Of a stretch of DNA of 64,000 bases, positions 1,271-63,497 are shown one piece after another; position 1 is the stretch's first letter, and each line of letters starts with the position of its first letter. The notes under the pieces are model-generated. The model saw nothing but the letters and a program-made list of their open reading frames with translations. It was not told where the DNA came from and ran no database searches. A program made the position numbers and the translations under genes. The DNA is from Megalonaias nervosa (taxonomy: Eukaryota > Mollusca > Bivalvia > Unionida > Unionidae). The stretch lies in assembly GCA_016617855.1 (NCBI GenBank), contig JAECUM010093569.1, forward strand, positions 57,499-121,498, given 5' to 3'.

Positions 1271-1770
1271 GAGTTGATGTACTGGGCTTCCTCTCTCACC
1301 GGTCAGGGCAAAAAGGCATTGAAAAGCTATATCCTCGGGGATGGAGATTCATACAGGACCCACACTCATTAAAACCATCTGATATTCCATTTAAAAACTT
1401 TGACTATAAAAGCATGTCAGGGTTAACATTAGAATTTGTTGGACATTCGGAGTATAAAGATTTATCGACATTATTTGAAATATATTTATATGACAAAATA
1501 TTGCCAGTTTTACAAATAAATTTAGATGTAAATAGAAGAAAAGTAATTTTACGATATCAGGGTGAAAAATCTTATCAGAGAGTAACATTAGTATTCAGTG
1601 ATGTGTTGGACAGATGGAAGATATTAACGGCACAGATAAACAATACACATTTTACAGTTCTAGTGGGTTGTCAGGAACAGAAGTCTGTCTCATTGCAACA
1701 AGAACTTGATATCCCTCGGAAATCTCGAGTCACTGTAGCTAGTGACAGGAATGGGGAAAACAGATTTATT
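1271..1770 (+). CDS. Exon: thrombospondin N-terminal / laminin-G-like domain (main part)
   Basis: A polypyrimidine tract plus CAG ends at 1270 and a GTAAGT donor follows 1770. The exon enters with two bases of a split codon and leaves in phase 0. The 166-residue frame begins GVDVLGFL and includes a beta-rich stretch with FEIYLYD, LQINLDVN and FTVLVGCQEQ. The last resembles the strand containing the conserved Cys of TSPN domains (LYVDC-type). This fold is found at the N-terminus of thrombospondins, NELL proteins and collagens. An upstream exon must supply the first base of codon one and the signal peptide. No ATG here is a credible start. Confidence 0.85.
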
Positions 1771-2192
1771 GTAAGTATGCTGCCCAATTCACTGCCATAC
1801 ATTTTAATAAATTTTGGAAGTGTAAACATTTTCACATTTATCTGAATGTCTTATCATACATGCAATTTCAGTTGAATTAATGCTTTTTCCATCATGGACT
1901 GAATATAGTGGTCATCATGGATTGTCCACATCATAACTTGTAATGGACAGATTAAATTAACCCAATGTCACAACATTATAATTATGTAATTGTGTATGTC
2001 CTCTACATCACATGGAACTTACCTGTTGGCTCAGTTACAGTAAACAATGCCATTTAATATACAAAGACCCGCTGACTATAATGAATTCATGTACATGTGA
2101 TGTGAGAGATGAACCATAAATTTTCGAGCAAAGAATGCTGAGACTGTTTAGATGTATCACAAAATACATAAAGTTTCATTATAGTAAGTTTC

Positions 2193-2193
<1 letters not shown>

Positions 2194-2236
<43 letters not shown>

Positions 2237-2248
2237 GAGAGAGAGAGG
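2194..2248. repeat. (GA)n microsatellite
   Basis: An almost pure GA tract with one GGG interruption. The flanks (1771-2193 and 2249-2762) show nothing recognisable. Confidence 0.97.
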
Positions 2249-2774
2249 GTGGTATGCTTTTAAATGAATAAAAAGAAAGAAAAGAAATCACATGCAGATA
2301 TAATTGGATTTCATTCCATTGTTAAACAGTGCAGGAAATGCTGTTATATAACATGTTCCCATGCAAGGAAATACACATAGCACACTCCAAATACAACCTC
2401 TGTTAGTCCAGTCTGTTTAGTAGTTGCTACCCAAATATACAAGTCCTTGTGTCACATTTTCTTAGGAACTAGACACGTGTTTACTTTTTCTGTAGGCCAG
2501 CAAATTTTATGCAGATTGTATGAAGCCCATGATGCTGTATTCTATAACCAACAGCATAAAAATTTACTTACAACTGCTGGTTTTGGTCATCTGACGCATT
2601 TACATGTAATATTAGAAAATGGATGGATGAACATAATGAAAAAGTGCAATCATGTAAGTTTTCAGTAGGAGATAATCTTGTATATAATATTTTCAGTTAA
2701 TGAAGATGTAATTTATTTGGTACAGTACATTCTTTCAATCCACATGAGAAATACTGCAAACTGTACCTGAATGA

Positions 2775-3029
2775 TTGTTGTTGTTGTTGGTGTGGGGCTT
2801 AACGCCATTTTTCAGCACAAGATAGGCTATACATGGTGGCCAGTATTGATGGTGGAGGAAGAAACCGGGAAATCCGCAGAATGAACCACCGACCCACGAG
2901 AAGCTACTGGCAAGCTTTCTCACATATCCACATTTGCCGAATCTTAGACTCGAACCCACGCAGACAGAGGTGAGATGGCAGTGATCCGTAATGGAGAGCG
3001 CTTTAGACCACTCGGCCGCTCGGGGCCCC
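2775..3029 (-). mobile_element. tRNA-derived SINE family A, with target-site duplication
   Basis: On the minus strand it starts GGGGCCCCGAGCGGCCGAGT with an A-box-like GAGTGGTCTAAAG and a B-box-like GGTTCGAGTC, and ends in a (CAA)n tail (TTG repeats on plus). The 12-bp duplication GTACCTGAATGA flanks it at 2763-2774 and 3030-3041. Other copies are at 17618 and 28397. Confidence 0.88.
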
Positions 3030-3041
3030 GTACCTGAATGA

Positions 3042-3742
3042 AAAGAGAATATTATTTATCAGTATGGTTACTAATATTTTTGCATTTTAACCCAATTGCT
3101 CAACATATTTTGACTAACTTTGACAGATAAAGCTTTAAACCTTTCAGATTTGTGCACATTATGTAGATGTGCCATAAGATATAGCTACCATTAAAAGAAA
3201 TTTTTGAAGCATTTAAACAACTTTATCTTACAAAAAATACCAAACAGAATGTGACCATCTTTGACAGCATCCTGTCATAAAGTCCTTTCAATACTGGACA
3301 TATATTGTTGATGTGCCATCAATTACGGATGAAGATAAAGAAATAGAGAAACCTTGAAACCCTGTTTTCATTAGATTGCAACAGAAAGTTTCCTACTGAC
3401 CTCGGTGTTGTGCAGACAGCAGTCAGCTGAGCATTGCCAGGCTCAATTAGGCCAATTGTTAATTATATTTTGGGCATATAGTCAGTTATTAGTAAAAATT
3501 ATTATATATGATTTCATAAGTATCCACAACCTTAACAAATGTTATAAAAATAGAGAGGACAAAGACTAAATATGATTTATATAGATTGCTAGTGTATCAA
3601 AGGTTTGAGGGAATGAAAATGAAATACAATACAATAATTCAGAAATTCATTAACATGGAATTTGTTTTGGTACACTATAATTCAAACTATAACTAGATCT
3701 TTTGGAACAGTTTTGAATTTGTCCTCTCACTCTCTCTTTCAG
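3042..3742. other. Intron, nothing recognised
   Basis: Unique-looking AT-rich intron ending in the CTCTCTCTTTCAG acceptor. Confidence 0.5.
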
Positions 3743-3815
3743 GGGTTACTGTTTGAGATTAGATACTACCCTTCAGCTGAGTCCTCCCATCTTTGCAGTG
3801 GTTATGCTGCCACTG
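3743..3815 (+). CDS. Exon: C-terminal edge of the TSPN/LamG domain
   Basis: The exon lies between a CTCTCTCTTTCAG acceptor and a GTAAGG donor. It enters in phase 0 and ends in phase 1. It encodes GLLFEIRYYPS followed by AESSHLCSGYAAT. This matches the closing strand of TSPN domains (an F-x-G-x-I-x-x-L/I-x-I-Y-P type pattern followed by a Cys). Together with the preceding exon it completes one domain. Confidence 0.8.
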
Positions 3816-4740: not shown

Positions 4741-6236
4741 GTAAGTTTACCTAAGTCAAGGTCATTGGGACATGTTCATCTTTTCCATGCTGCCTGGAAA
4801 TTGGAAAAACTTCTGCAGAAAGAATAGCTATGTTCCTGTTTGGGAAAGCCCATGCATTTTGCAAATATTGATCACAGTTAGGAATAAGCTGGGAATTTTC
4901 AGCTGCCACTTGATTCCCAAAAATAGAAAACTGAGTCATAATGAAGAGATTGGTAATTAAATTTATTAAGTTCTTATTGGAATTTTTGGAAGTTGCGGAA
5001 CTCTTGCATCAGTTGAGATACAATTACTGTACTGATCATTTGGGTGCTTACCCTAAACAATTTATTGTCAATGCAAGCGCTCAACTGACTGGATTCGTCA
5101 AGTAGACTCATTACCTCTTAGTCTATAACATATCAGTATCTTTTTTTCTTTAGAAGTTATGAGGACCAGTCTAACATCACAGTTTATCAATATGGCTGCA
5201 ATGTGACCATAGTGAGTGTTGAGAAAAATAAAAAAGCTTTTCTTCACTAGTGGCTCTATTGATATGTAAAGTTAATAAAAATGTTTTATGATAAATCTTA
5301 GCTTATTACTGATTAGCTCACACTGGAAACATGAATTTATTCCTAGACCTTGGCTGAATACTTAAGAGATGATTCCAATGATAAATGTATTTGGGTCCCC
5401 ATCCCTAGAATTGGGAATTTTTATTGCAGAACAAGCATTTTGGGAATTTGTATTGCAAAACAACTATTTTGAGAATATTTAGAATATTTGGTGAATTTCA
5501 ACACATAGTCTTATGGTTTTTAACCTCCTATCCATCATCATGAGTAATTTTTGTGCAGTTTATTTTCATATGTTATTTATGGTTTATTAAAAGTTAATAT
5601 GGTTGGGGTTTGTGTTTCTGAAGCAGATTTAGTTATATAATTTTGTTTTTTTTTTGTAGCAAAGTTTCTTTCATAAATAGCAGCAGTAATAGAGGTTGCT
5701 GTTGTTGTTGCTCTTTTGGACATAAAACAGCTTTTTTAATAAGTTCTTAATATGAAACAAATGTACCTTTTTAATTCGTGTAACATAATATGAATTTAGG
5801 CAGCATGTAATAATTTTGTTTGTTACTTGAATAAAGGTGCTTTAGGATCACATGTCACTGTTAGCTTTATATCAAATTAAAGTTCAGTTATGTTTTAAAG
5901 GAAAGGAATCTTTGCAGCACATTTATCAAGTGATGCAAGTCAACAAACTAGAATACTGAACACTATTAGAAGCTACATTCCCTTTTCAATGAAAAAAAAA
6001 AAAACAAAACAAAAAAACCCCATGAAATAGTATGTTACAAAAAGCATGATTTTGCATCATTGGAAGTAATGGAGGTTGAAAGAACCCTTCAGCACAAGTC
6101 CAAGCATATTTTGGCAAACGAATCTCAGGCTGTGTGTTGAATTCACATAATTTAAAACACAAAATGTGTCTGTTGATTACTACCAGTATGTATTGTCAAC
6201 TATCAAAGCAGCTAGTTAATAAACTTTTTAGTTGAG
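4741..6236. other. Intron, nothing recognised
   Basis: AT-rich sequence with short poly-T and poly-A runs (for example near 5992). Open frames here look like chance. No exon supported. Confidence 0.5.
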
Positions 6237-7270: not shown

Positions 7271-7274
7271 CTCG

Positions 7275-8953: not shown

Positions 8954-9069
8954 ATATTCCTCAGAGAGATGAGGGTTTCCTGAAAGATGCAGGGAGCAGT
9001 GACAGGCTGCATGTACTGGAACAAGAGATCCTACAGCTTAACAGAATGGTCACAATGCTAAAAGACCAG
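8954..9069 (+). CDS. Exon: predicted coiled-coil linker
   Basis: Acceptor TTTTTTAAG, donor GTATTG; phase 1 in, phase 0 out. The exon encodes 39 residues ending in LHVLEQEILQLNRMVTMLKDQ. Hydrophobic residues at roughly heptad spacing (L, L, I, L, M, L) suggest a short coiled coil. TSPN-VWC-EGF proteins commonly carry an oligomerising helix at this position. The exon spliced after it continues with LTQRVSYLE, which extends the heptads. Oligomerisation is inferred. The donor is not a perfect consensus. Confidence 0.7.
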
Positions 9070-9959: not shown

Positions 9960-10263
9960 ATATAATACTTCTATACTCGTGAAAGTGCATCAGCAATTAG
10001 ATTATCTTTCCCTTGATTTGCCTGATGTCAATATTGTATTCCTGCAACATTCCACCTTATTATTGATTTTTGTTTTTCATCTTGCCATGAATGTAAGGGT
10101 GTTGTGATCACTGAATACAATTATCAGAGAAGGAGCTGAACTAATGTACACTTCAAAGTGTTGCAAAGCCATTATCGAAGCCAAACATTCCTTCTTGATT
10201 GTGGAATAATTTCTCTGGTGCTTATTAATCTTTTTGAAAAATAGCACACTGGATGAACTACCA
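9960..10263 (-). mobile_element. Gypsy-type retrotransposon remnant: RNase H region
   Basis: Reverse translation resembles the RNase H part of Gypsy pol (a HPVCYFSK-type segment followed by SDHNTL-like residues), with stops and frameshifts. The sequence is dead. It is continuous with 12109-12905 once the inserted element at 10266-12106 is removed. Confidence 0.75.
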
Positions 10264-10265
10264 TA

Positions 10266-11483
10266 TTTGCCGGCCTATAAGACGATACTTTTTGACCAGA
10301 AAATCTTAGCTTTTTCTTATACTCCACATCGACTTATATATGGATTATGTCATCCGAATCTCTTAATGATATTTTTTGTATTGAAAATAGTTCTCCAAGA
10401 GTAAAAAAAATAATGTGTAAGAAATATTTCATTTTGGGAAAGAGATTGTGTATGAAAAAATATAGGATCCCACATTGAGTATTTTAAACAATTGCATGAT
10501 AGTCAGTATTAAAAATTAACATCAGATGTAATAGGGCTAAAGCAGCATGCACCAGTAATGTACGTTGTTTGTAATGTACATTGTTTAAATTTGATTACAT
10601 ATATGTGTGTTAGAATTTTCAAGTTAGAAGATGAATAACCGTGACAAAGACATTCCATCACAATTTTAGTCTTGCACCTAATGATCAGATAAAACGTATG
10701 CCCCATTGAGAGAGAGAGAGAGAGAGAGAGCAGGAGCAAGATGTCTTCACGATTGTAAATCTGTATTGTTCACTTACCTGATGACTGATTTTACTCATGT
10801 ACAAGTGCAGTACCATATTCCATTATCAATTAATACCACTAGGTAAGCAGTTCCTTCTAGTTTTTGTTGCCACTTCAATTATTAAAAGAATCACATGGCA
10901 TTGTAGTGGTATTTACATGCTAATTAAATATGCTACAGCTGTATTCAGTCATTCCAAGATAACACCTGTTTGAGGTCAAGATTTGGCAGACCAGATCAGA
11001 TTAGCAAGGCTACCAGTAGAAAATGAGGCTACCCATGGATACCGTACCATATAGTGAAATGAAATGCCAGGTGGTTACTAGTGTAAATTTCTCAGCCAGT
11101 GCCTTTTTTGAACTTGCCGACAGAACCAACAGCATTTTAAAGTACATCTGGCATGAGCAAAGGTAAAAAACAATTGCTGTCTAAGTGCAGGAAGAGTACA
11201 TGTACTTTAAACAAAATCTTATTTGTTGAGAATGGAGCTGTCGTTATACTTGCAAAGAAAATTAGACAGGATGCAAAATGGTCATTCTTGGGATTTAACC
11301 TAATGGAGACTATATGAATATAACTATTATCAATATTTAAACCCTGAAGGAGTATGGTATGTATTTTCATAGTTTACAATTTCTGTTTCATTTATTAATG
11401 TTTTCTCTCTTTGACAAAAGCTTCAGCAACATGGGGGCAATAAGGTAAAAAAAACAAACAACAAAACCCCTATGAAGAACTGA

Positions 11484-11542
<59 letters not shown>

Positions 11543-12108: not shown

Positions 12109-12905
12109 CATTACACATTTTTATATTTTTGATTCAATACTGTACCAAACCCAACATCACTTGCATAAAATGACATTTTAAATGATTGACTGAAATTTTT
12201 GGAGCTGAAAGAACTGGTGCACTCTTAAGTATGGCCTTTAACTTATCAAAAGCCTTCTGACATTTTTCAGAATGCTGTAACTTGATTTTCCTGCTTAACA
12301 AATTGGTTGGGGGTCAGTAATTATGGAAAAAAATTGGAGCAGAATTTCCAATAATATACAGCCATGCCCAAATAACGCATCAGCTACTTTTTACTGATAG
12401 GCACAAGGAAATGAGAGATAGCCTTCCCCATAACTTCTAATGGTTTAAGTCACCCATATCCCACAATATGTCCTAGAAATGTAACACAAGCATTGCAAAA
12501 ACTCACTTTTACATAAATTAATTGTAAAATTTTCATAACTGAGTCTATCAAAGAATTTCTGAATTGTCAGTAAATGATCTTTCCAGGTGTCATTATAGAT
12601 GATGACATCATCAATGTAAACATTACAATTATCTAGACCAGATGCAGTCATGTTCATTAAATGTTGAAAAGTACAAGGTTAACCTTTCATCCCAAACAGC
12701 ATCACTTTATATTGATAAAGGCCATCTGGAGTTATGAATACCAAAATTTCCTTTACCCTTTCTGCCAGTGGAATTTGCCAGAATCCTATCAAAAGGTCGA
12801 ATTTGGTGACATATTTTGCATTTCCAGTTTTGTCATGCAGTCATTGATTCTAGGAAACAGGAATGAATCTGTTTTGGTCACATGGTTCACTTTTCTGTAG
12901 TTGGT
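12109..12905 (-). mobile_element. Gypsy-type retrotransposon remnant: reverse transcriptase region
   Basis: The minus-strand frame at 12445-12657 carries VYIDDVIIYNDTWKDHL, the YxDD active-site box and following helix of Gypsy RT. Further conserved pieces (a DGLYQYKV-like segment near 12715) lie upstream in other frames. Multiple stops and frame changes show it is inactive. Confidence 0.85.
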
Positions 12906-13839: not shown

Positions 13840-14292
13840 TTCAGGACAGCAACATGGAGTCCAGACAAGCGAATCATGATTCTTTTCCAACTAGAAAAAG
13901 ATCTCCAGATGAAAAAATGGCATACTCTGAGAATCACCAGCCAAGAAAGAGAAAAGATTTAGAGCACAGAAAAGTAACTGTTGAGTGCAACTTTAAAGCC
14001 AAATGGTGGAAAGAATTCCCTTGGCTGGAATATGGCACATACGTTTGGAAGACCCGTTTGACTTGGGTTTGCATGATTGTGAAGACTGCAGAGGTGAAAT
14101 AACCCTTTCATGACAGGGTCTAAGAATTTTAAAAAATCTGCCTTTGTTAACCACGATGCATCTGGAGAACACATAAGATCTTCAATGGCATTCTTCCACA
14201 ACAAAGAAGTCTGTAAGCTTGCAGAGAAAAATGCATTATTTGGATTACAAAGGGGGAGGGTCATTGTAGTTTTTGTAATGATTAAGATGTAA
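13840..14292 (+). pseudogene. Frameshifted fragment resembling a TTF-type zinc-finger / hAT-derived protein
   Basis: The frame at 13821-14102 contains FKAKWWKEFPWLEY. The frame at 14110-14292 continues MTGSKNFKKSAFVNHDASGE. These are typical of the N-terminal zinc finger of ZNF862-like, hAT-derived proteins, but the two parts are in different frames and the Cys-rich link is broken. No splice signals join it to the host gene. Probably a transposon-derived remnant. Confidence 0.55.
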
Positions 14293-14900: not shown

Positions 14901-15436
14901 ATGCACACAAGCCACAAAGTCCAGGCAAATACACACAAGCCACAAAGTCCAGGCAAAATTAGGTTGCAATTACTATGCACAAAGTCCAGGCAAAATTAGG
15001 TTGCAATTACTATGCACAAAGTCCAGGCAAAATTAAGTTGCAATTACTATGCACAAAGTCCAGGCAAAATTAGGTTGCAATTACTATGCACAAAGTCCAG
15101 GCAAAATTAGGTTGCAATTACTATGCACAAAGTCCAGGCAAAATTAGGTTGCAATTACTATGCACAAAGTCCAGGCAAAATTAAGTTGCAATTACTATGC
15201 ACAAAGTCCAGGCAAAATTAGGTTGCAATTACTATGCACAAAGTCCAGGCAAAATTAAGTTGCAATTACTATGCACAAAGTCCAGGCAAAATTAGGTTGC
15301 AATTACTATGCACAAAGTCCAGGCAAAATTAGGTTGCAATTACTATGCACAAAGTCCAGGCAAAATTAGGTTGCAATTACTATGCACAAAGTCCAGGCAA
15401 AATTAAGTTGCAATTACTATGCACAAAGTCCAGGTA
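14901..15436. repeat. 37-bp minisatellite, about 14 copies
   Basis: Unit GCACAAAGTCCAGGCAAAAT followed by TAGGTTGCAATTACTAT. Copies differ mainly by TTAGG/TTAAG. The first two units are diverged. Confidence 0.97.
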
Positions 15437-15592
15437 AAATTAGCTTTGAAATTACTAAGTCCATATTATGCTGATTGGATTATATGTTCTTTCCACATTT
15501 TGTTTTTTCAGATTTTCAGACATTTCAGACATTTTTCTGCAGTAGAGGCATGTGTTTTACAATCACATATCTAGTTGTTATGTAATTTTACC

Positions 15593-15990
15593 ATGTTTTC
15601 CAACAATATATGTTACCATGCGTTCAGAGGGTATATTTTACCATGTTTCAGATGGCAATGGTATTTTACCATGCTTTCAGATGGTATATTTTACCTAGCT
15701 TTCAGATGGCAATGGTATTTTACCATGCTTTCAGATGGTATATTTTACCATGCTTTCAGATGGCAATGGTATTTTACCATGCTTTCAGATGGTATATTTT
15801 ACCATGCTTTCAGATGGCAATGGTATTTTACCATGCTTTCAGATGGTATATTTTACCATGTTTTCAGATGGCAATGGTATTTTACCATGCTTTCAGATGG
15901 TATATTTTACCATGCTTTCAGATGGTAATGGTATTTTGCCATGCTTTTCAAATGGCATATTTTGCCATGTTTTCAGAAGGTATAATCATT
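15593..15990. repeat. About 54-bp higher-order minisatellite
   Basis: Alternating half-units TTTTACCATGCTTTCAGATG plus GCAATGGTA or GTATA. It is open in all three forward frames because the unit lacks stops, but shows no domain. Confidence 0.96.
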
Positions 15991-17321: not shown

Positions 17322-17453
17322 ACAACAAACTTGACGCAGAGGGTTTCATATTTAGAGACCTGTGCATGTCAAACTGAGTGTGTTCACCAGGGACGGATCT
17401 TTGACAATGGAGAAACATGGAGCAAAGATGTCTGTACCATTTGTATTTGCAGA
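17322..17453 (+). CDS. Exon: end of coiled coil and first two-thirds of VWC domain 1
   Basis: Acceptor TATTTCCACAG, donor GTAGGT; phase 0 on both sides. The 44 codons read TTNLTQRVSYLE, then a cysteine-rich segment TCACQTECVHQGR, then IFDNGETWSKD and CTICICR. Spacing of C-x-C, C-V-x-x-G, G-E-x-W-x-x-D-x-C-x-x-C-x-C is diagnostic of a von Willebrand factor C domain, the chordin/thrombospondin type. The domain is completed by the next exon. Confidence 0.88.
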
Positions 17454-17617
17454 GTAGGTATAGATTTCCTTGCTCTACTTTTTGTCATCAATATGTTTAC
17501 AAATTTAAAGAGTGAGAAGTCAGTATTTTTAATATTCCTCCGTTTAAATGGTTAGAAGTCAATATTTGGTTTTTTGAAGAGGTTATTTATGTTGTAGTTA
17601 GGTCTACGTCTCATTGG

Positions 17618-17862
17618 TTGTTGTTGTTGTTTAATGTCTTTTTCAGCACATGATAGGCTACACATGGCAGCCAGTATATTTGGTGGAGGAAGAACCTGGT
17701 AAAACTCAAGAAGATCCACTGACCCATGGGAAACTACTGGCAGGTTGTCTCACATATTCACATTGGCAGAGCCCAAGACTCAAACCCACATGGACAGAGG
17801 TGAGATGTCAGTGGTCTGTAATTGTGAGCACCATAGACCACTTGGCCACCTGGGAACCCTAG
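17618..17862 (-). mobile_element. tRNA-derived SINE family A, copy 2
   Basis: Same body as 2775-3029 (GCACATGATAGGCTACACATGG, then TGGTGGAGGAAGAACC). A short duplication CTCATTGG flanks it at 17610-17617 and 17863-17870. The right-hand duplicate is the first unit of the adjacent tandem array. Confidence 0.82.
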
Positions 17863-19774: not shown

Positions 19775-19823
19775 GATGGCAAACCACAGTGTGTCAGGAG
19801 GATGGACATTGAACATTGCCATG
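19775..19823 (+). CDS. Exon: end of VWC domain 1
   Basis: Acceptor ATTTCAG, donor GTAAGT; phase 0 in, phase 1 out. It encodes DGKPQCVRRMDIEHCH and completes the VWC pattern C-x-C-x-x-G-x-x-x-C-x(8)-C. The 3' part of this exon together with its donor is the founder-like first unit of a minisatellite that continues to 21379, so many alternative donors follow. Reading through from this exon into the second unit meets TAG, so using a downstream donor in this frame would truncate the protein. Confidence 0.8.
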
Positions 19824-21379
19824 GTAAGTACTGTGATACAGTGTGTCAGGAGGACAGATAGTGAACATTGCCATGGTAAGTACTGTGATACAGTGTGTCA
19901 GGAGGACAGACATTGAACACTGCTATGGTAAGTAATGTGATACATTGTGTCAGGATGACTGACAGTGAACATTGCCATGGTAGGTACTGTGATAGTGTGT
20001 CAGAAGGACAGACATTGAACATGGTTAGTACTGTGATACAGTGTGTTAGGAGGACAGACATTGAACATGGTAAGTACTGTGATACAGTGTGTCAGGAGGA
20101 CAGACATTGAACATGGAAAGTACTGTGATACAATGTGTCAGAAGGACAGACTTTGAACATGGTAAGTACTGTGATACAGTGTGTTAGGCAGACAGACATT
20201 GAACATGGTAAGTACTGTGATACAGTGTGTCAGGAGGACAGACATTGAACATGGTAAGTACTGTGGTACAGTGTGTCAGGAGGACAGACAATGAACATGG
20301 TAAGTACTGTGATACAGTGTGTCAGTAGGACAGACATTGAACATGGTAAGTAATGTGATACAGTGTGTCAGGAGGACAGACATTGAACACTGCCATGGTA
20401 TGTAACATGATACAGTGTCAGGAGGACAGACATTGAACATGGTAAGTAACGTGATACAGTGTGTCAAAAGGACAGACAATGGACACTACCATGGTAAGTA
20501 CTGTGATATAGTGTCAGGAGGACATGCATTATACATGGTTAAGTAACATGATACAGTGTGTCAAAAGGACAGACAGTGGACACTGCCATGGTAAGTACTG
20601 TGATACAGTGTCAGGAGGACATGCATTGAACATGGTTAAGTAACATGATACAGTGTGTCAAAAGGACAGACACTGGACACTGCCATGGTAAGTACTGTGA
20701 TACAGTGTCAAGAGGACATGCATTGAACATGGTTAAGTAACATGATACAGTGTGTCAAAAGGGCAGACAGTGGTCATTGCCATGGTAAGTACTGTGATAC
20801 AGTGTGTCAAAAGGACAGACAGTGGACACTGCCATGGTAAGTACTGTGATACAGTGTCAGGAGGACATGCATTGAACATGTAAGTAACATGATACAGTGT
20901 GTCAAAAGGGCAGACAGTGGACACTGCCATGGTAAGTACTGTGATACAGTGTCAGGAGGACAGACATTGAACATGGTAAGTAACATAATACAGTGTGTCA
21001 AAAGGACAGACAGTGGACACTGCCATGGTAAGTATTGTGATACAGTGTCAGGAGGACAGACATTGAACATGGTAAGTAACATAATACAGTGTGTCAAAAG
21101 GGCAGACAGTGGACACTGCCATGGTAAGTAACATGATACAGTGTGTCAAAAGGACAGACAGTGGACACTGCCATGGTAAGTACTGTGATACAGTGTCAGG
21201 AGGACATGCATTGAACATGGTTAAGTAACATGATACAGTGTGTCAAAAGGACAGACAGTGGACACTGCCATGGTAAGTACTGTGATACAGTGTCAGGAGG
21301 ACATGCATTGAACATGGTAAGTAACATGATACAATGTGTCAAAAGGACAGACAGTGGACACTGCCATGGTAAGTAATGA
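19790..21379 (+). repeat. Minisatellite of an exon end plus its 5' splice donor, about 33 units
   Basis: Units of about 44-53 bp carry GTGTCAxxAGGACAGACA, TGAACA(TTGC)CATG and GTAAGTACTGTGATACA. The first unit spans the real exon end (to 19823) and its GTAAGT donor. Most units retain CATG|GTAAGT, some have GTTAAG, GTAGGT or GTATGT. Two subtypes (long, with CACTGCCATGG; short, with TTGAACATGG) alternate in the second half. Confidence 0.97.
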
Positions 21380-40356: not shown

Positions 40357-40366
40357 CATTCATGCA

Positions 40367-42365: not shown

Positions 42366-42674
42366 ACCACTAAAGTGGCCTAGTGGTTAGAGCGTCTGCC
42401 TTGGATGCAGGAGGTTGTGGGTTCAAACCACGGCCAAGGCATACCAAAGACTAATTTAAAGAATGGTACTAGCGGCTGCCTCGCTTGGCACTCAGCATTA
42501 AGAGGTTAGTGTTAGGACTGGTCTGCCTGGTGTGAAGATAATGTGACTTGGTGGGACTTTATGCTCCAAGAATGCGGCATGATGTCCCAATTCTAGACAT
42601 CACTATAAACTGCCACAATGCAGACATCTTAGCGATATGACTGAAAAATTGTTAAAGCTACATTAAAAATCCAA

Positions 42675-44866: not shown

Positions 44867-45025
44867 ATTTCTGTAAGCCAAACCCATGTCAGAATGGTGG
44901 TGTGTGTGTTCCCTCAATATGGCCAAATGAGCCTGAGAAGGTCACTTGTATCTGCCTTCCTAACCTGGATGGACATCTCTGCCAATACAATGTTGAGGAG
45001 GTCTGCAGTCTGCCTTTTAGCACTG
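44867..45025 (+). CDS. Exon: EGF-like domain 2 and start of Kunitz domain 2
   Basis: Acceptor CTCTCCTGTAG, donor GTAAAT; phase 1 on both sides. It encodes DFCKPNPCQNGGVCVP, a longer loop WPNEPEKVTC, then ICLPNLDGHLCQ (six EGF cysteines) and EVCSLPFST, the first Kunitz Cys. The exon is short, and the longest open frame over it lies in a different frame, so it is easy to miss. The Kunitz C1-x8-C2 spacing is exact after splicing to 48153. Confidence 0.9.
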
Positions 45026-48152: not shown

Positions 48153-48360
48153 GGAACTGTGATCAGCAGATTGAAAGATGGTACTTTGATTATAAGACCC
48201 AAACGTGTCAGAAATTTGTGTACACGGGTTGTGGTGGAAATGGAAACAACTTTCTGACCCAAGAGACTTGCCAGAATCGGTGTCAGATTGGAGCATGTTG
48301 TGTTAGATCCCCCTTGTACAAGAACCAAATCATTGGATATGACTCCCAAGGCTATGATAG
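48153..48360 (+). CDS. Exon: Kunitz domain 2 and first GYD repeats of cassette 2
   Basis: Acceptor TCTGTTTTATTTCAG, donor GTATGT; phase 1 in, phase 2 out. It encodes GNCDQQIERWYFDYKTQTC, FVYTGCGGNGNNF, ETCQNRCQIGACC, then IIGYDSQGYD. All six Kunitz cysteines are present, unlike domain 1, and an extra CC follows as in domain 1. P1 is again Asp. The GYD repeat is fused straight onto the Kunitz domain. Confidence 0.92.
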
Positions 48361-49619: not shown

Positions 49620-49729
49620 ATATGGTTTCAATATTGATGGCTTTGACAGAAATGGACAAAAGAGAACAGTGGATAATGGCATCAAGTCGGGTTCACAGCG
49701 CTTCAATCAAGATGGATTTGATTGGCAAG
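49620..49729 (+). CDS. Exon: GYD repeats and linker
   Basis: Acceptor TTATTATCCACAG, donor GTAGAG; phase 2 in, phase 1 out. It encodes RYGFNIDGFDRNG, then a less regular QKRTVDNGIKSGSQ and RFNQDGFDWQ. The pentapeptide period is kept at both ends. Confidence 0.87.
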
Positions 49730-52965: not shown

Positions 52966-53131
52966 GCTTTGACAGGAATGGATTTGATGATGAGGGATTC
53001 AACCACATTGGTTACAACAAAGAGGGATATGACAGCGATGGGTTCAATCTGACAGGGTACAGTCTGTATCGTGAATATGATGGCGTGGTTGACTATAACC
53101 ATGAGGGCTATGATAAGGAGGGATACAACAG
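52966..53131 (+). CDS. Exon: GYD pentapeptide repeat array
   Basis: Acceptor GTATGTCTTATACAG, donor GTAATT; phase 1 in, phase 2 out. It encodes GFDRNGFDDEGFNHIG, YNKEGYDSDGFNLTG and YNHEGYDKEGYNR. The repeat is more acidic here (Asp/Glu at positions 4-5) than in cassette 1. A decayed copy of its 3' two-thirds lies just downstream (53140-53247). Confidence 0.9.
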
Positions 53132-53139
53132 GTAATTAG

Positions 53140-53515: not shown

Positions 53516-54790
53516 ATCTGTAGTTTCTGTCAATCATGAAGTCTACACAAAAGTTGTACCCCTCTTGGTAATTAAATTCCAGGTTTGTATTAATCATGAA
53601 ATCTACACAAATGTTGTACCCCTCTCGGTAATTAAATTCCTGGTTTTTATTAATCATGAAATCTACACAAATGTTGTACCTGTCTCAGTAATTAAGTTCC
53701 TGGTTTGTATTAATCATGAAATCTACACGAAAGTTTTACCCCTCTCAGTAATTAAATTCATGGTTTGTATTAAGCATGAAATCTACACAAAAGTTTTACC
53801 CCTCTCAGTAATTAAATTCATGGTTTGTATTAAGCATGAAATCTACACAAAAGTTGTACCTCTCTCAGTAATTACATTCATAGTTTGTACCCCTCTCAGT
53901 AATTAAATTCATGGTTTGTATGAATCATGAAATCTACACTGAAGTTGTACCCCTCTCAGTAATTAAATTCATTGTTTGTATTAATCATACACAAATGTTG
54001 TACCCCTCTCAGTAAGTAAATTCATGGTTTGTATTATTCATAAAATCTGCACAAAAGTTGTACCCATCTCAATAATTAAAATTCATAGTTTGTATTAATA
54101 ATGAACTCTATGCAAAAGTTGTACCCATCTCAGTAATTAAATTCATAGTTTGTGTTAATAATGAACTCCATGCAAAAGTTGTACCTATCTTAATAATTCA
54201 ATTCCTGGTTTGTATTAATCATGAAATCTACACAGAAGTTGTACCCTTCTCAGTAATTAAATTCATGGTTTGTATTAATAATGAAATCTACACAAATGTT
54301 GTACCCCTCTTAGTAATTAAATTCATGGTTTATATGAAGTATGAAATCTACACAAATGTTGTACCCCTCTCAGTAATTAAATTCATGGTATGTACTAATC
54401 ATGAAATCTGCACAAAAGTTGTCCCCATCTCAGTAATTAAAATTCATAGTTTGTATTAATAATGAACTCCATACAAAAGTTGTACCCGTCTCAGTAATTA
54501 AATTCATGGTTTGTATTAATAATGAACTCCATGCAAAAGTTGTACCCGTCTCAATAATTCAATTCCTGGTTTGTATTAATCATGAAATCTACACTAAAGT
54601 TGTACCCCTCTTAGTAAGTAAGATTCATGCTTTGTATTAATTATGAAATGTTCACAAATGTTGTATCCCTCTTAGTAATTAAATTCATTTTTTGTATTAA
54701 ATCATGAAATCTACACAAAACTTGAACCCCTCTCAGTAGTTAAATTTATTTTTTGTGACAACGATGAATTCTGCACAGAAGTTGTTCCCT
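53516..54790. repeat. About 60-bp minisatellite, about 21 copies
   Basis: Unit GTTTGTATTAATCATGAAAT CTACACAAAAGTTGTACCCCTCTCAGTAATTAAATTCATG. No stops in several units, giving artificial open frames. 54791-55736 after it shows nothing. Confidence 0.96.
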
Positions 54791-55736
54791 ATGAATAATT
54801 ACAAATGCTTGGTAATGAATGAAATTGATGTGAAAAATAACTGTTTCCCACTGTTTGTTAATATATAGAAGTTTTTCCAGGACATGCAATTGCGCAAATT
54901 CCATTATCATTCATTCTGCACAGCATCACGAATGACGTGTGTCTGTAGCTCAGTGAAGTTTCAGATCAGCATCATTAAATGTAGCTAAAAATAACTAATT
55001 CGTTTCATGCACAAAGTATTTCAACACCATTCAGATCAACGTAGAACATAACGCATCTGATTGTACATGCTAAAACAGGGTGGTCTGCTTACATTAAATT
55101 TTTTATGTCGCTATGACCGGAAGAGTTGTTTGTTTATTAAGGAGTGAGCAGCTTTCTTATTTGGCATAATGAAGCTGCCTTCCTTAGATTTCTTTGCAGT
55201 ATCAAATATGGTCTCTTCCAGCACTTGGGACATCCATGGCAGATTACATGTACACAGACCAGTCTTTTTTCAGCATGTATTGGATTGATGGTGTTGCACT
55301 GTATGTCAGTATGATGTATGTTTAAATCATTCGGGCATGAAATATTTCAGCACATTTAGTGTCGTGAAAATTCAGTGAGAAACAGACACAGATATCATTT
55401 GTGATGTGCAGAACGAACTAAAAATTTAATGATACCCCCTTTTTCTGTCCCCTCTTTAAAATGTGACAATGTATGAAAATAACACATGGACCATTTTTCA
55501 TGAGCCTAATGAAACCTGTAAGCTACATTAATATTTTATTGCTGAATTGGATTATGGAATTGTTTGGTTTCTGGATCAAATGCAAAATGAAGCTCATACT
55601 AAGTATATTTTGCAACTGAGTAATAAGTTACTTTTATTAATTTTATAGTTATTAAAAATATTATACTAACTACACTTGATAATGTTGTGCAATGACTGAA
55701 ATATCTGAAATGAAATTCTGTGGTGTCTTTTTCTGT

Positions 55737-56086
55737 GTGTGTGTCTGTGTGTGTGTGTGTGTGTGTGTGATTTGGATTTTTAACATAGCTTTAACAGTGT
55801 TCCAGTCATATCACTTCAGTGTCTGCAGTGTGGCAGTTTATAGTGATGTCTAGCACTGGGGTATTATGCCGCAGACATACATCATCATGTCTCACCCAGT
55901 CACATTATCCTGACACCAGGCCAACTATTCCTAAAACTAACCTCTTTATACTGAGTGCCAAGTCAGGCAGCTGCTTGTACTGTTTTTATTAGTCTTTGAT
56001 ATGACTCAGCTAGAGTTTGAACCTGCGACCTTGCATCTGAGGCAGATGCTCTAACCACTTAGGCCACCAGAGTGGTCTTGTCTTTC
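55737..56086 (-). mobile_element. tRNA-derived SINE family B, copy 3 (minus strand)
   Basis: (GT)n at 55737-55768, then ATTTGGATTTTTAACATAGC, and the reverse-complement tRNA-like head GGTTAGAGCATCTGCCTCAG / GGTTCAAACTC near 56015-56075. More diverged than the other two. Confidence 0.85.
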
Positions 56087-56209: not shown

Positions 56210-56795
56210 ATATGTTTTCTGTAACATTCTGCATGTGGTATCTTTAACATACTGCAAGGTGTCTCTGTAACATACCACAAGGTGTCTCAGTAACATGGGT
56301 CTCTGTAACATTATGCAAGGGGTCTCTATAACATAATGCAAGGGGTCTCTGTAACATGGGTCTCTGTAACATTCTGCATGTGGTATCTTTAACATACTGC
56401 AAGGGGTCCGTTTAACATACTGCAAGGTGTCTCTGTAACATTTTGCAAGGTGTCTCAGTAACATGGGTCTCTGTAACATTATGCAAGGGGTCTGTATAAC
56501 AATGTAAGGGGTCTCTGTAACATTCTGCATGTGGCATCTTTAACATACTGAAAGGGGTCTGTTTAACATACTGCAAGGAGTCTCTCTAACATACCACAAG
56601 GGGTCTCTGTAACATGGGTGTCTGTAACATAACAGTAAGGGGTTTCTGTAACATGCTGCAAGGGGTCTCTGTAACATACTGCAAGGGGTCTTTATAACAT
56701 ACTGCAAGGGGTTTCTGTAAAATGGGTGTCCGTAACAGAACAGCAAGGGGTCTTTGTAATCCACTGCAAGGGGTTTCTGTAACATACTGCACGGA
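56210..56795. repeat. About 25-bp minisatellite with higher-order pattern
   Basis: Unit TAACATACTGCAAGGGGTCT CTG, about 24 copies, interrupted by short TAACATGGG(T)GTCTG units. Confidence 0.95.
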
Positions 56796-57299
56796 GTCTA
56801 CTCATAGATACAGTTCTCCTATAAAACTATCCACTCCTTGAAAATTGAAACTCCCCACTTACAAAAACAGTAGAGGGGAAATTCCGTCTCTGAAAATCCT
56901 TGAGAAATTACAGAACATAAATGGAAAATTTTATATTTAGTTTTGAAATCTACAAAAGAAAAAGCCCAGTACCCCAAATATTCTCAATTTAAAAATGGAA
57001 CTTTGTGTCACACATGAAAACGTAAAATGCTTAAATTATTCCAACTTTAGTCTGTTTTTTATAGTCCCTAACTCCACAAATGTCTTGATTAGGAAAATGA
57101 ATCTTGAAATCGCATGAATAGTCTAAGGGTGTTATAAATTTTGAAATCTTGACACTAAAATGAAAATGTTCCTGTAAATACAATTAACACAAGAATAATC
57201 TCTGTTTTGGGGCCTTCTTCTAATATGGTTTTCACAGCATGATCTCTCTTTAGTGCCCCTCATTATGATATGGTTCCTGTTTAGTGGTAGAGAAATTGT
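56796..57299. other. Intron, nothing recognised
   Basis: No feature seen. Confidence 0.5.
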
Positions 57300-57780
57300 A
57301 TTATCATGTGTTTCATTATAAGGCAGTATACTGTATGGCTGCCATGGACATTGTTATAATGAGGTAGTATTATATCATGTACTTCACTATAAAGCATACT
57401 CACTACAAGTCAGTATTCTGTATGGCTGCCATGGACATTGTTATAATGAGGTGGTATTATATCATGTACTTCACTATAAAGCATATTCACTACAAGTCAG
57501 TATTCTGTATGGCTGCCATGGACATTGTTATAATGAGGTAGTATTATATCATGTACTTCACTATAAAGCATACTCACTACAAGTCAGTATTCTGTATGGC
57601 TGCCATGGACATTATTATAATGAGGTAGTATTATATCATGTACTTCACTATAAAGCATCCTCACTATAAGGCAGTATTCTGTATGGCTGCCATGGACATT
57701 GTTATAATGAGGTAGTATTATATCATGTACTTCACTATAAAGCATCCTCACTATAAGTCAGTATTCTGTATGGCTCCCAT
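57300..57780. repeat. 81-bp minisatellite, six copies
   Basis: Unit with CAGTATTCTGTATGGCTGCC ATGGACATTGTTATAATGAGGTAGTATTATATCATGTACTTC. Low divergence. Confidence 0.96.
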
Positions 57781-57926
57781 AGATAGTGTTATATAAAGGG
57801 AGTATTGTATGCATAATTTTGGGGGGAGCAGATATGTCCCAAAATATGAATCAGAAAAAAATATTTTACAGCAAGAAATCATTTCATTTATTCTTTTTAC
57901 TGCTACAAGTTTTATTTTTTTTTCAG

Positions 57927-59585
57927 GGCTGGTTTGAATTGCCATGGTTACAATCGCCAAGGATACAATGCCTATGGTCTTGCAGCAGGTTATACCTATA
58001 GATGTCGTTCACGCACTATTCAAGCCTGTCAGTCACTTGAGAAGCGACCTGGACTTAGTGTAGTGCGGTTTAGTCCTGGCAAACAGTGTGAAGATGTTCA
58101 GTGTGGTGAGAGTTGTGGCTGCATACATGGGAATAAGACATACAAACTTGGTGAAACATTTCGTATTAGTTGCCAGTATTGCAAATGCTCCCTGACAGGT
58201 GTTGTAGAATGTGAATGTTCAAAGATTGGTCATCGTAAAGAGATTCGAGATTTGACTCGAGATGAAATTGAACTTTACCAATCTGCAATACAAATTCTTA
58301 TGAAAAGAGATGGTAAGTCACACTCAAAGTGGTTCGAATTTGTGAGGATGTATGCAGAACATCTTCCTCAGGCCCTTGGAAATGTTGCGTCTCTGCCGTG
58401 GCATCGGTACTTTCTGAGAATGGTTGAACAGGAGTTGCAGGCAATTGATTGTCGAATAACCATTCCATATTTTGATTGGACACTGGAGGCAGGTGCTTTG
58501 CAGAGATCCCGAATTTGGGCAGCAAATATGTTTGGTGGAAACGGTGATAATGTCACAGGATGCATAAATTACCACCCATTCAAATCGTATTTTCCTCCAT
58601 TCTTGGCTCCGTGTATTCGACGCAGATTCAATGTCAGTGTGTCATTACCAGATGCCATTTCCATCCAGTTTGCACTGAATGACCCTTTGTATGAGAGGTT
58701 CAGGATACATATGGAGATGTTTGTTGGGATTGTTCAGTCATGGATAGGGGGTCACATGGCCTCAGAATTAGCACCTTATGATCCGTTATTCCATTCGTTA
58801 TTGGCCTACATCGACAAATTATGGACAGACTGGATGAATAAACATGAAAATGGTCTTCTTTTGTACCCACAGGATCATCTGTATATACCCATGTATCCAT
58901 TCAAAGCAAGCCCAGAAGATGTGATGGACTCCAAATTACAAATGTGTGTGGAGTATATTCCTTTGTCGGAGGCAGCTATTTGTAATATTACCCTGCCTAA
59001 CTATGGCTATGATAGCCATGGTTACAGTAGGTTGGGGTATGACAGAGAGGGATACGATAAAAGTGGGTATAATATGTTTGGGGTGGATAGAAGTGGTAGG
59101 TTAGACGATAGAGGATTATATAACATTTATGGATTTGATAGATTTGGTTATATGAGGAATGGGTTTGATAGCATGGGATTTGATAGATTTGGTTTTTGGA
59201 TTGACTCATTTAATTTAGATGGATTTGATGCTGAGGGGTATGACAGATCAGGATATGATAGATACGGATTTGATCGTAGAGGCATTACACCATATGGCTT
59301 CCACAAAAATGGAACATGGCTGAATAGGATCCCGCCAGACCTCTTTGATTCCTATGGATACAATAGATACGGATTTGACAAGTTTGGATTTGACAGGCAA
59401 GGGAATGATGTTTTCAGATTCGATTCTCTTGGCTATGATGCTGAGAGGTGTAACCGATTTTTCCTTGGTCCAATGTATGTGATCATCAAAAGATGGATTG
59501 AGAAGCAGTTGGAGAAAGTGAACAATATTTCTTTAAGAGTCATAACCCGGATTTGTCCAGCAGTCACCAGATTTCCAGAATGGAG
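57927..59585 (+). CDS. Exon: VWC-like, tyrosinase-like domain 2 (copper ligands lost), GYD array and RICP tail
   Basis: Acceptor is a T-rich tract plus CAG ending at 57926; donor GTAATT; phase 2 in and out. Order: CHGYNRQGYN; Cys-rich VWC-like domain (about 58003-58222); tyrosinase-like domain (about 58231-58990) with HRKEIRDLT, ASLPWHRYFLRMVE, IPYFDWTLE, SWIGGHM and APYDPLFHSLLAYID; a long GYD array (about 59005-59445); and a CNRFF...RICP tail. His remain at 58360 and 58402. The position nine residues before the PWHR His is Leu (58375). The CuB positions are Val (58723), Gln (58735) and Leu (58801), so no CuB His is left. The frame is fully open over 552 codons with conserved Cys and Trp, so this is a maintained non-catalytic domain, not a pseudogene. 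Cassette 1 spreads the same content over four exons. Confidence 0.95.
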
Positions 59586-59689
59586 GTAATTAAAAGTCTT
59601 AAGTTTTATTAATTTTGCATCAACTGTTTAACATGTTTAATTGGTGTGTACAAGTTACTCTTTGTGTCTGACAAATCTTGTCTGATACC

Positions 59690-60300
59690 CAGGGACTACC
59701 AGAATGCTGAATGTGGGCTATTACATACTTTGATCTGGAGCCCAGAGACTACCAGATTGCTGTGTCTTGGGTATCCCATACTTCAGTCTGAAACCCAGGA
59801 CTACCAGTATGCTGGATCTGGGCTACATCATAGTTTGGTATGGAGTCCATGAACTACCAGATTGCTGAGTCTGGGCTACCACACACTTCTGTCTGGAGTC
59901 CAGGGGCAACCATATTGCTGTGTCTTGGGTATCCCATACTTCAGTCTGAAACCCAGGACTACCAGTATGCTGGATCTGGGCTACATCATAGTTTGGTATG
60001 GAGTCCATGAACTACCAGATTGCTGAGTCTGGGCTACCACATACTTCTGTCTGGAGTCCAGGGGCAACCATATTGCTGTGTCTTGGGTATCCCATACTTC
60101 AGTCTGAAACCCAGGACTACCAGTATGCTGGATCTGGGCTACATCATAGTTTGGTATGGAGTCCATGAACTACCAGATTGCTGAGTCTGGGCTACCACAT
60201 ACTTCTGTCTGGAGTCCAGGGGCAACCATATTGCTGGGTCTGGGCTGCCAGATCAGTCTGGAACCCAGGGCCTATTAGAAAGCTGGGTCTGGGCTACCAA
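59690..60300. repeat. 158-bp higher-order tandem repeat
   Basis: Built of about 50-bp subunits (ACCCAGGACTACCAGTATGC, TGGATCTGGGCTAC). TTGCTGTGTCTTGGGTATCC recurs at about 59758, 59916 and 60074, so a three-subunit block was amplified recently. Confidence 0.94.
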
Positions 60301-61422: not shown

Positions 61423-61581
61423 GTATACTCAGAACTGGCTGCATCGTGGTGATCAGATTCCGCTGATTGAGACCATTCAGAATGAGTTGGACCAGAGTCG
61501 TCATATCAACCTTGACTATTTCCCTGAACGCAGTAGTGTAGGAAAGGATGAGGTGTGGTTACCATTGTCTCCTGATAGAAG
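61423..61581 (+). CDS. Exon: linker between RICP tail and Cys-rich module 2
   Basis: Acceptor TTTCTGCTCAAG, donor GTAGAG; phase 2 in and out. It encodes YTQNWLHRGDQIPLIETIQ, then DYFPERSSVGKDEVWLPLSP. There are no cysteines. It probably continues the tail domain (compare NWLQQYWIKDIKDV in cassette 1). Residues W-L near the start are shared; the rest is not recognisable. Note an RGD tripeptide (HRGDQ), a possible integrin motif only if exposed. Confidence 0.85.
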
Positions 61582-61853
61582 GTAGAGAAATACTGTAAAA
61601 TACTTTGGCTTTAAAGGTCAAACTTTTGATTATTTTCATTTAGTACTGCACATCAATGTGCATTTCTCATTTTAGGTGCATTTTTCTACTGATAATCACT
61701 TATTTTATTCTGCGGTATGAAAATTGCTACTAATTTATTTGTCAGTAAAAGGAATGTTTGGTCACCTTTTAGAGCTGTTGATGAACATTTACCATGTGAC
61801 AGATTTTGTCTTTAATCTAAAGTCTGCTAAAACCATTGCTGATTTTGTTCCAG

Positions 61854-61948
61854 ATTGTGCTTTGTGACCTACTACTATACTGAGTGTCCATTTGGTCAGT
61901 TTCCCATGGTGTGCCCACCTAATTTGTGTGATGGAAGGAAATGCCCAG
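61854..61948 (+). CDS. Exon: first half of Cys-rich module 2
   Basis: Acceptor ATTTTGTTCCAG, donor GTAAGG; phase 2 in, phase 1 out. It encodes LCFVTYYYTECPFGQF then VCPPNLCDGRKCP. It aligns with RFCF...VCFNNPCLKEKCP of 41597-41842, but here an intron interrupts the module between KCP and YPEA. Confidence 0.88.
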
Positions 61949-62199
61949 GTAAGGCGAGTACAAATATATCTCCTATCAAAAGCCCATGGAGCCCATTTAA
62001 AACCCATTGCAGGTTCAGTGTAAACTTTCAGTTAAAACACTCATTAAAGATGGCAAACATAATTAGCATCGTTTTGTTTCCAAGCTAGTATTAATCCTGT
62101 AAATTGCAAAGAATTAGCTATGAGTCATGTTTAACTCTACCTCTGCTTCCTAACAGAGATTCTAACTTTCAGCGCAAGCTGGTGTTATGCACATTTAAT

Positions 62200-62830
62200 T
62201 TGTATTGTGTGTTGGCTCTTGTCCATGATTATATGCTGTGTATATTTACTTTGTATTGTGTAATTGACTTTGTCCATAATTGAGGGTAGGAGTTGGGTCT
62301 ACCTGAACCATGTCTTTTCTTGTGAACAACATATTATATATTAAATATTTGTCTTTCAATTTAGATTATATTTTAAGATCATTATTACTTGGAGGTAAAC
62401 ATGCTGACAGATATTGAGTTCAAGGTCTAGTTATTTTCAGAAATTTGGATTGTTCTTGAAGCAAGTTATTTTATGAATTTGATAGGAAAATTACTCTCAT
62501 CATGGTTCTGTTATTGCATCTTAGTTGTTTATGTGTTGTTTACTTCAGAATTACTCCCTCCATATCTTAACATAAGTCTTAATGAAATCAGTTTTAGTTG
62601 TGTTCAGTTTTAGTCTGATCAGATTTATTTAAATTATTCACTGGAATTACAAAGTGCTCAGTAATACATTCAGACTAACTTTATTGGAATTATTGTGAAT
62701 TCATTCAAGGACATTTTGAATTATATTGTTGTAATACATTAAGACTGTTGGAACATCAGCATTATTCCAGGCTATGGAATTCATTCAGAACTCTATATTT
62801 TTGGACTTGTGTTAGAACTTTTAGGACTAT
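62200..62830. repeat. Dispersed block, second copy
   Basis: Collinear with 50990-51545 (see there). Order and orientation are preserved. Confidence 0.7.
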
Positions 62831-62831
62831 G

Positions 62832-63310
62832 GGAAGTGAAAAAAGTGGCATCCCAAGATAGGAGCCCAGCTGTTTTAGACAAGACCCATGGGAAGTGAAG
62901 AAAGCAATCTGATTAAAATTAGATATCCACTGTCCTACATGAAGATTTGATGATGACTGCTTAGGGGTCATGTTCTGGTGACCTTTGAATTAGCCATTGG
63001 AAATGTTGTTTTCAAAATCTGAAAGTGAATCAGATTGTTTGGTACAAATTCATGTTCTTCATCCACACTGCTCTGTCTCCAAATGCGAAGATATAAGACT
63101 TCATCTGATTGGCTGATAAAATTAGAGATTATGGTAATAACATAGGTCACCAGAACATGACCCCTTAGTGGACACTGTCAGATCTTCATGTACAGCAGTG
63201 GAGATCTGATTTTAATCAGATTGTGAAGAAAGTGGCATCCCAAGATAGGAGCCAACCTGTCTCAGACAAAACCCATGGGAAGTGAAAAAAGTGGCATCCC
63301 AGGATAGGTA
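62832..63310. repeat. About 58-bp repeat split by a foldback element
   Basis: GGGAAGTGAAAAAAGTGGCATCCCAAGATAGGAGCC units at about 62832, 62890 and 63224, and again at 63278. The foldback element at 62905-63223 interrupts the second unit. Confidence 0.85.
62905..63223. mobile_element. Foldback MITE with about 80-bp terminal inverted repeats and 9-bp target duplication
   Basis: Left end CAATCTGATTAAAATTAGAT through AGGGGTCATGTTCTGGTGACC; right end is its inverted copy ending ATTTTAATCAGATTG. TGAAGAAAG is duplicated at 62896-62904 and 63224-63232. 9-bp duplications and long TIRs are typical of Mutator-like elements. No coding capacity. Confidence 0.88.
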
Positions 63311-63404
63311 GCTGCTTAATAGAGGTTCATTTGAGCAGTAATGGAGATTTAGAAAATATGTCTGGTTATGACAGATGTTCGATTAATATCTCTGATAATT
63401 GCAG

Positions 63405-63497
63405 GATATCCAGAAGCAGTTTGCAGAATAAACAGGTGTGGAGGCTGTCAACATGAGTGGTACAGTGGGATCACAGGGGAGGTGATACAGTGTACAG
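63405..63497 (+). CDS. Exon: second half of Cys-rich module 2
   Basis: Acceptor TCTGATAATTGCAG, donor GTAATA; phase 1 on both sides. It encodes YPEAVCRINRCGGC, QHEWYSG, EVIQCT, matching YPEAHCRVDFCGDC and EWYFDGKLVDC of module 1. In module 1 the next exon is an EGF domain, so an EGF/Kunitz exon may follow beyond 64000. The gene continues because there is a good donor and no stop. Confidence 0.88.

Follow-up and report, generated by a model that had tools for sequence, protein, structure and literature searches.

In proteins of the NELL family, VWC domains lie on either side of several consecutive calcium-binding EGF domains, and the heads of NELL and thrombospondin proteins, which oligomerise via a coiled coil, have glycans and cell-surface molecules among their binding partners. 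In invertebrates, a tyrosinase gene is often taken to encode an enzyme that hardens shell, cuticle or tunic. We analysed a stretch of 64,000 nucleotides from Megalonaias nervosa (Bivalvia; Unionidae), positions 57,499 to 121,498 of contig JAECUM010093569.1 in assembly GCA_016617855.1 (hereafter the window), in which a chain of 20 exons joins a NELL-like head with TSPN and VWC domains to two copies of a cassette composed of EGF, Kunitz, VWC-like, tyrosinase-like, GYDxx pentapeptide and Cys-rich units. With a probability of roughly 60%, we read this chain as one gene, or part of one, for a large secreted extracellular-matrix protein with a NELL-kind head and a two-module arm containing non-catalytic tyrosinase-like and Kunitz domains.

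The nearest published architecture that we found was Tuphoxin, an ascidian protein that, in the text available to us, combines EGF, a thrombospondin (TSP) type 1 repeat and an alpha tyrosinase domain with close similarity to mollusc haemocyanin and is secreted into the tunic; its authors regarded the joining of TSP1 and tyrosinase as a tunicate innovation (PMC9395347). Tuphoxin thus resembles our model in that EGF occurs together with a module of thrombospondin type and an alpha tyrosinase domain, but it has a TSP1 repeat where the head of the model has TSPN, and its one tyrosinase domain has copper histidines confirmed by the authors, whereas the copper sites of the model are largely lost (PMC9395347). 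The model also adds Kunitz and GYD parts, and in the available text Kunitz appeared only in the reference list (PMC9395347). A Pfam scan of the three joined pieces of the model gave no TSP1 match at E-values up to 1. Kunitz, EGF, tyrosinase and VWC domains occur in mollusc shell matrix or mantle data, where, in the portions of these sources available to us, they lie on separate proteins, whereas the model combines them (PMC8700984, PMC6641155). The reading first made from the letters of the window alone (the sequence-only reading) had named no described protein with this combination, and our literature searches, beyond whose reach most subscription papers lay, returned no description of it. 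Judged from the literature and not from animal sequence databases, the model is most likely a new combination of known domains.

The exon chain was rebuilt from splice borders, open frames and phase, which yielded 20 plus-strand exons from 1271 to 63497 with AG/GT borders, consistent phase at all 19 junctions and one open frame of 1,888 residues with no stop, reproducing the twenty-exon frame of the sequence-only reading with the same outer coordinates. Intron lengths ranged from 272 to 8,252 bases, several being long. Exon 1 begins inside a codon, the coding sequence probably starting in an exon upstream of the window, within which no signal peptide was seen. Exon 1 is open in one frame only, and exons 2, 5, 7, 13 and 15 each have two open start phases. 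An automatic exon-chain search of the whole window with the same penalty on both strands scored 330 on the plus strand versus 8 on the minus strand, a contrast that is partly circular because 19 exons of the hand-built model served to train the codon weights; no comparable exon chain exists on the minus strand. With a higher penalty of 8, the automatic chain had 24 exons and agreed with the model on both borders for 15 of the 20 exons and on one border for three, the differing borders being 1774 for exon 1, 31050 for exon 10 and 36274 for exon 11; exons 2 and 3 were not recovered. A penalty of 6 added more small pieces, used 3743–3815 in a different frame and started exon 3 at 8965. Where the hand-built model departs from the automatic chain, its borders were chosen by fit to NELL2 or to the cassette alignment.

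The first 283 residues matched three NEL/NELL2 chains in a PDB sequence search (E 3.3e-9 to 4.0e-9). The alignment covered model residues 67–275 (66–275 in two of the three chains), running from exon 1 into exon 5, and the thrombospondin/NELL-like N-terminus that had been proposed from the letters is borne out by this match of the TSPN-coiled coil-VWC head. Exon 1 (1271–1770), in which the match starts, encodes most of the TSPN (laminin-G-like) domain and had no Pfam match alone. Exon 2 (3743–3815), with good acceptor and donor sites and fitting phase, completes this domain, exon 3 (8969–9069) is phase-consistent and encodes the coiled coil, and exon 4 (17322–17453) encodes the end of the coiled coil, a CxC motif and the first half of the VWC domain (Pfam VWC E 7.3e-6), all three lying within the NELL2 alignment. 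Exon 5 (19775–19823), which was also present in the automatic chain, continues the VWC domain with CxCxxGxxxC. A PDB search with exon 1 alone returned no match at E up to 10, the NELL2 match being obtained only from the joined head. In Pfam, the joined head gave Laminin_G_3 at E 0.029 and VWC at 25.8 bits, just below the cut-off of 27.6. The VWC score of exon 4 alone was 26.6 bits and did not rise on joining, which counts against exon 5, and the NELL2 alignment extends seven residues into this exon. The VWC domain seems incomplete after exon 5, and a search for its remaining part gave no convincing exon, the candidates coming mostly from tandem repeats. The exon 3 acceptor at 8969 was picked by phase, with 8965 or 8967 as alternatives if one more exon exists.

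Compared with NELL1 and NELL2 (NEL), the model shares TSPN, the coiled coil, CxC and the first VWC in identical order, but its VWC looks shortened and Kunitz, tyrosinase-like, GYD and Cys-rich units replace the calcium-binding EGF series and the further VWC domains. Each cassette has one EGF, followed by Kunitz and tyrosinase, in place of such a series; EGF_CA reached only E 1.7 on exon 6 and was absent from the Pfam matches of the joined pieces at E up to 1.

The 3' end of exon 5 lies within a minisatellite (19786–21375), which starts inside the exon and repeats a 52-base unit about 33 times with 77% matches. This minisatellite carries the 3' end of the exon together with its splice donor, CATGGTAAGT occurring 23 times and GTAAGT 25 times versus 0.4 expected at even base use, and tandem amplification within the intron seems to have taken in both the exon end and its donor.

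Behind the head, the two cassettes aligned with each other at 239 identical positions of 661 (E 3e-120), and their EGF-Kunitz parts at 48 of 103 (E 4e-22). The earlier claim of a duplicated cassette with units recurring in the same order holds, with the amendment that cassette 2 has an extra GYD block. Exon 17 (57927–59585; 1,659 bases) holds in a single exon the unit order of cassette 1 exons 8 to 11, namely a VWC-like unit, a tyrosinase-like domain, a GYD block and a segment with RICPA. Given that intron positions differ between the cassettes, inside Kunitz and between the VWC-like and tyrosinase-like parts, introns were moved, gained or lost after the duplication. Phase 1 is shared by the introns that precede exon 6, separate exons 12 and 13 and follow exon 20; flanked in this way, either cassette is copyable within the gene with the frame unbroken, and an intragenic duplication can have given rise to cassette 2.

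Both tyrosinase-like domains exceeded the Pfam tyrosinase (PF00264) cut-off of 22.6 bits in the joined pieces, with 89.1 bits (6.9e-25) in cassette 1 and 62.8 bits (7.6e-17) in cassette 2. They are encoded by exon 9 (29541–30445), which also starts a GYD block, and by exon 17, with Pfam values of 6.4e-26 and 2.2e-18, respectively, for these exons. Tyrosinase MelC2 was the best NCBIfam model (103.6 and 85.9 bits), its curated cut-off of 450 being far higher. The leading PDB matches were haemocyanins, which we take to be of mollusc origin and whose scores are summed over many units, and tyrosinase 1wx2, presumably from Streptomyces. No haemocyanin beta or cupredoxin domain was among the Pfam matches of the joined pieces at E up to 1. 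Scanning viral and prokaryote contigs with the protein of exon 17 gave 5 and 19 pattern-matching stretches, respectively, none of which was confirmed as a relative. The VWC-like Cys-rich unit that precedes the tyrosinase-like domain in cassette 1 is encoded by exon 8 (27376–27596), which had no Pfam match alone and aligned with the unit of cassette 2.

The copper site separates these domains from their relatives. In the available text of Aguilera and colleagues, type-3 copper sites follow the patterns H1(n)H2(8)H3 for CuA and H1(3)H2(n)H3 for CuB, with Phe four residues before H3 in both sites and Asp four residues after CuB H3 (PMC3658974). The post-CuB Asp and the CuB Phe are conserved in both domains, which lends some confidence to the placing of the copper slots; the CuA Phe is present in cassette 1 and replaced by Ser in cassette 2. 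In cassette 1, CuA H2 is N and H3 is H, and CuB H1 is V, H2 is H and H3 is H, whereas in cassette 2 CuA H2 is L and H3 is H, and CuB H1 is V, H2 is Q and H3 is L. Clearly kept copper histidines thus number three of six in cassette 1 and one of six in cassette 2, and a normal binuclear copper site would not be expected in either domain. While the model shares PF00264 in both cassettes with the alpha-subclass type-3 copper proteins (tyrosinases and mollusc haemocyanin units, as treated in the available text of PMC3658974), most of the copper ligands are gone. As most ligands are lost, the domains look structural and not catalytic. The sequence-only reading had named the right family here, and did not mention this loss, which changes the likely function.

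EGF and Kunitz domains open each cassette. Exon 6 (23999–24226) encodes the cassette 1 EGF and the first half of Kunitz (Pfam 2.3e-8 and 4e-7), and exon 7 (26083–26219) encodes the second half and a CC segment, while in cassette 2 the EGF and the start of Kunitz are on exon 13 (44867–45025), which aligned with EGF-Kunitz of cassette 1, and Kunitz continues on exon 14 (48153–48360), where a GYD block starts. The cassette 1 EGF passed the Pfam cut-off of 21.5 with 29.6 bits and the cassette 2 EGF was just under it with 20.1 bits. Against a cut-off of 21, the Kunitz domains scored 55.9 bits in cassette 1 and 67.1 bits in cassette 2. The cassette 1 Kunitz is split by an intron, and the 6/7 junction is supported because the joined match (4.9e-15, profile 2–51 of 53) exceeds those of both halves (4e-7 and 0.031); the joined Kunitz of cassette 2 (1.6e-18) spans the profile from 1 to 53 of 53. 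By reading the sequence, all six Kunitz cysteines were found in cassette 2, and cassette 1 was found to be without the sixth. Asp follows the second Cys in both domains (GICD and GNCD), at the position that we take to be P1, as in BPTI. Kunitz-type protease inhibitors have a basic or hydrophobic P1. With Asp there in both, the Kunitz domains look structural rather than inhibitory, and on their residues neither appears to resemble a trypsin-type inhibitor.

The motif G[YFL][DNSKRH] occurred 52 times in the model protein, about three of these outside the GYDxx blocks, whereas 1,000 shuffles of the same protein had on average 9.4 and never more than 18. Of its 51 spacings, 44 were multiples of five and 36 were exactly five. 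In cassette 1, the block runs from exon 9 through exon 10 (31101–31286) to exon 11 (36147–36386), which ends it, adds a segment with RICPG and aligned with exon 17; in cassette 2, a block runs from exon 14 through exons 15 (49620–49729) and 16 (52966–53131), and the register of five is kept across junctions 9/10, 10/11, 14/15, 15/16 and 16/17. A motif scan of both strands found the block between Kunitz and the VWC-like unit in cassette 2 only, with none there in cassette 1. In three blocks measured, Tyr made up 11 to 13 percent and Asp 12 to 15 percent. Eleven PDB matches of the GYD block at E 0.4 or worse, including teneurins and designed repeat proteins, were rejected as chance.

Each cassette ends with a Cys-rich unit (..CPAYPEAHCR..CGDC..EWY..), which is repeated at 41597–41842 in cassette 1 and 61854–63497 in cassette 2. 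The first copy, with PEAHCR..CGDC, is exon 12 (41597–41842), which aligned with exons 18 to 20. In cassette 2, the phase-consistent exon 18 (61423–61581) is a linker before the unit, with weak alignment to the last part of exon 11 and the beginning of exon 12, and exons 19 (61854–61948) and 20 (63405–63497) encode the first part and the YPEAVCR part of the unit, both aligned with exon 12. Exon 12 had no Pfam family at E up to 10, and the unit is possibly an undescribed small domain; a single PDB match to a metallocarboxypeptidase inhibitor (E 0.73) was rejected as chance. Exon 20 leaves the same phase as exon 12 and is followed either by a further exon beyond the window or by a stop soon after. 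The third cassette that the sequence-only reading had considered would lie outside the window.

Several observations weigh against one gene with non-catalytic tyrosinase-like domains, and they were considered together with the alternatives. Some support beyond phase was found for 17 of the 19 junctions, being thin at four: 4/5 (seven residues of the NELL2 alignment, with no gain in VWC score), 7/8 (where the cassette alignment starts two residues before the junction), and 11/12 and 18/19 (both in poorly conserved stretches). The remaining two, 5/6 from the head to cassette 1 and 12/13 from cassette 1 to cassette 2, have phase and splice sites alone. A second GT donor of exon 4 (exon end 17457) joins exon 6 in phase and skips exon 5. 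No promoter or transcript was seen for the model. Exon 12 has an unusual, weak donor (gttaga) with an in-frame TAG directly behind it, and could be a last exon. These features of exon 12, tied to exon 13 by phase alone, would suit two or three neighbouring genes, that is, a NELL-headed gene ending at exon 12 and a tandem relative that carries cassette 2 behind a first exon of its own, as yet unseen. We regard this as rather unlikely, given that exon 13 starts with an acceptor and without Met, and that no exon of the automatic chains falls in the 3,024-base gap separating exon 12 from exon 13, where no TSPN-specific search was made. A crude scan also found no signal-peptide exon in the gap, with little power as it found none in five other stretches, including that upstream of exon 1, and an internal duplication fits the phase-1 symmetry of both modules. 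A single transcript across cassettes 1 and 2 is likely. That the exons are unrelated, or belong to a pseudogene, and align by chance in a decayed or mis-assembled locus is very improbable: the window is rich in minisatellites, contains retroelement pieces and has several long introns, but 1,888 stop-free codons, Cys patterns conserved between homologous cassettes and a maintained repeat register would hardly be expected of such a locus.

The function of the tyrosinase-like domains was weighed likewise. An active multi-domain matrix phenol oxidase that oxidises the GYD tyrosines of its own chain would fit the clear membership in the tyrosinase family, the position of the tyrosine-rich repeats next to the domain and the precedent of Tuphoxin, which in the available text joins EGF and TSP1 to tyrosinase (PMC9395347). 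We hold it to be improbable in view of the replaced ligands at CuA H2 and CuB H1 in both cassettes and at CuB H2 and H3 in cassette 2. Two of the three CuB histidines are still present in cassette 1, and a His shared by both domains upstream of CuA (model residues 527 and 1365) could be the first CuA ligand, CuA H1 having no fixed spacing in the published pattern. The loop after this candidate would be much shorter than usual. Counting it, no more than four of the six ligands would remain in cassette 1 and no more than two in cassette 2. AlphaFold2, run without an alignment and with the two cassettes only, gave a mean predicted local distance difference test (pLDDT) score of 33 and 34 and was not used, and the fold of the domains is assigned by sequence only.

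In the non-catalytic matrix protein that we favour, the TSPN-coiled coil-CxC-VWC head would associate the chains and bind matrix or cell-surface partners, and the two module copies (EGF, Kunitz, VWC-like, tyrosinase-like, GYDxx and Cys-rich units) would form a long arm behind it. A presumably secreted oligomer of this kind would gather at its head several long arms, built from inactive-looking tyrosinase folds, GYDxx blocks rich in tyrosine and small domains with many disulphides. Rather than as an oxidase and a protease inhibitor, the tyrosinase-like and Kunitz domains may have been retained as folded spacers or surfaces for binding, and the blocks rich in Tyr, Gly and Asp would be likely cross-linking sites, their tyrosines being oxidised by another enzyme, or cation-binding sites. 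More tentatively, and with doubt prevailing, the model could represent an undescribed class of NELL-derived matrix proteins with tyrosinase and Kunitz as structural repeats in phase-symmetric cassettes, perhaps three or more, and GYDxx cross-linking arms; in such a class, the inactive-looking tyrosinase domains may be docking sites for an active tyrosinase or carriers of its substrate. If the single transcript is real, exon shuffling has turned a NELL-type secreted protein into a repeat protein, and a tyrosinase fold has been retained while its copper site decays. A reading as a hardening enzyme from the name of the tyrosinase domain would mislead here, and the locus provides a candidate tyrosine-rich, cross-linked matrix protein that can be tested.

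Outside the exons, an Rfam search at gathering thresholds gave no match. The automatic chain at penalty 8 contained six extra pieces. Three of them (2826–2969, 17647–17799 and 40386–40503) were rejected as exons as they lie inside dispersed repeats, 2185–2251 was rejected as low-complexity, and 5154–5211 and 13845–14093 were rejected as matching neither NELL2 nor anything between the cassettes. One dispersed repeat of about 237–255 bases, which mimics exons in frame searches, is present in three copies with 78–88% identity (2775–3029, 17617–17849 and 28403–28657), and a second repeat family of about 150–160 bases with 76–84% identity was found within 40340–40520, at 42363–42521 and, on the minus strand, at 55929–56078. 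Intron 3 contains retrotransposon fragments on the minus strand, opposite to the gene, at 10077–10274 and 12445–12678, with matches to RNase H (PF17917, 7.6e-12) and reverse transcriptase (PF00078, 1e-7). Minisatellites with units from 26 bases up crowd the introns, and several have long spurious open frames; those detected lie at 14941–15457, 15609–15977, 25281–25842, 32678–33148, 35047–35491, 43544–43954, 53532–54806, 56218–56799, 57313–57793 and 59689–60297.

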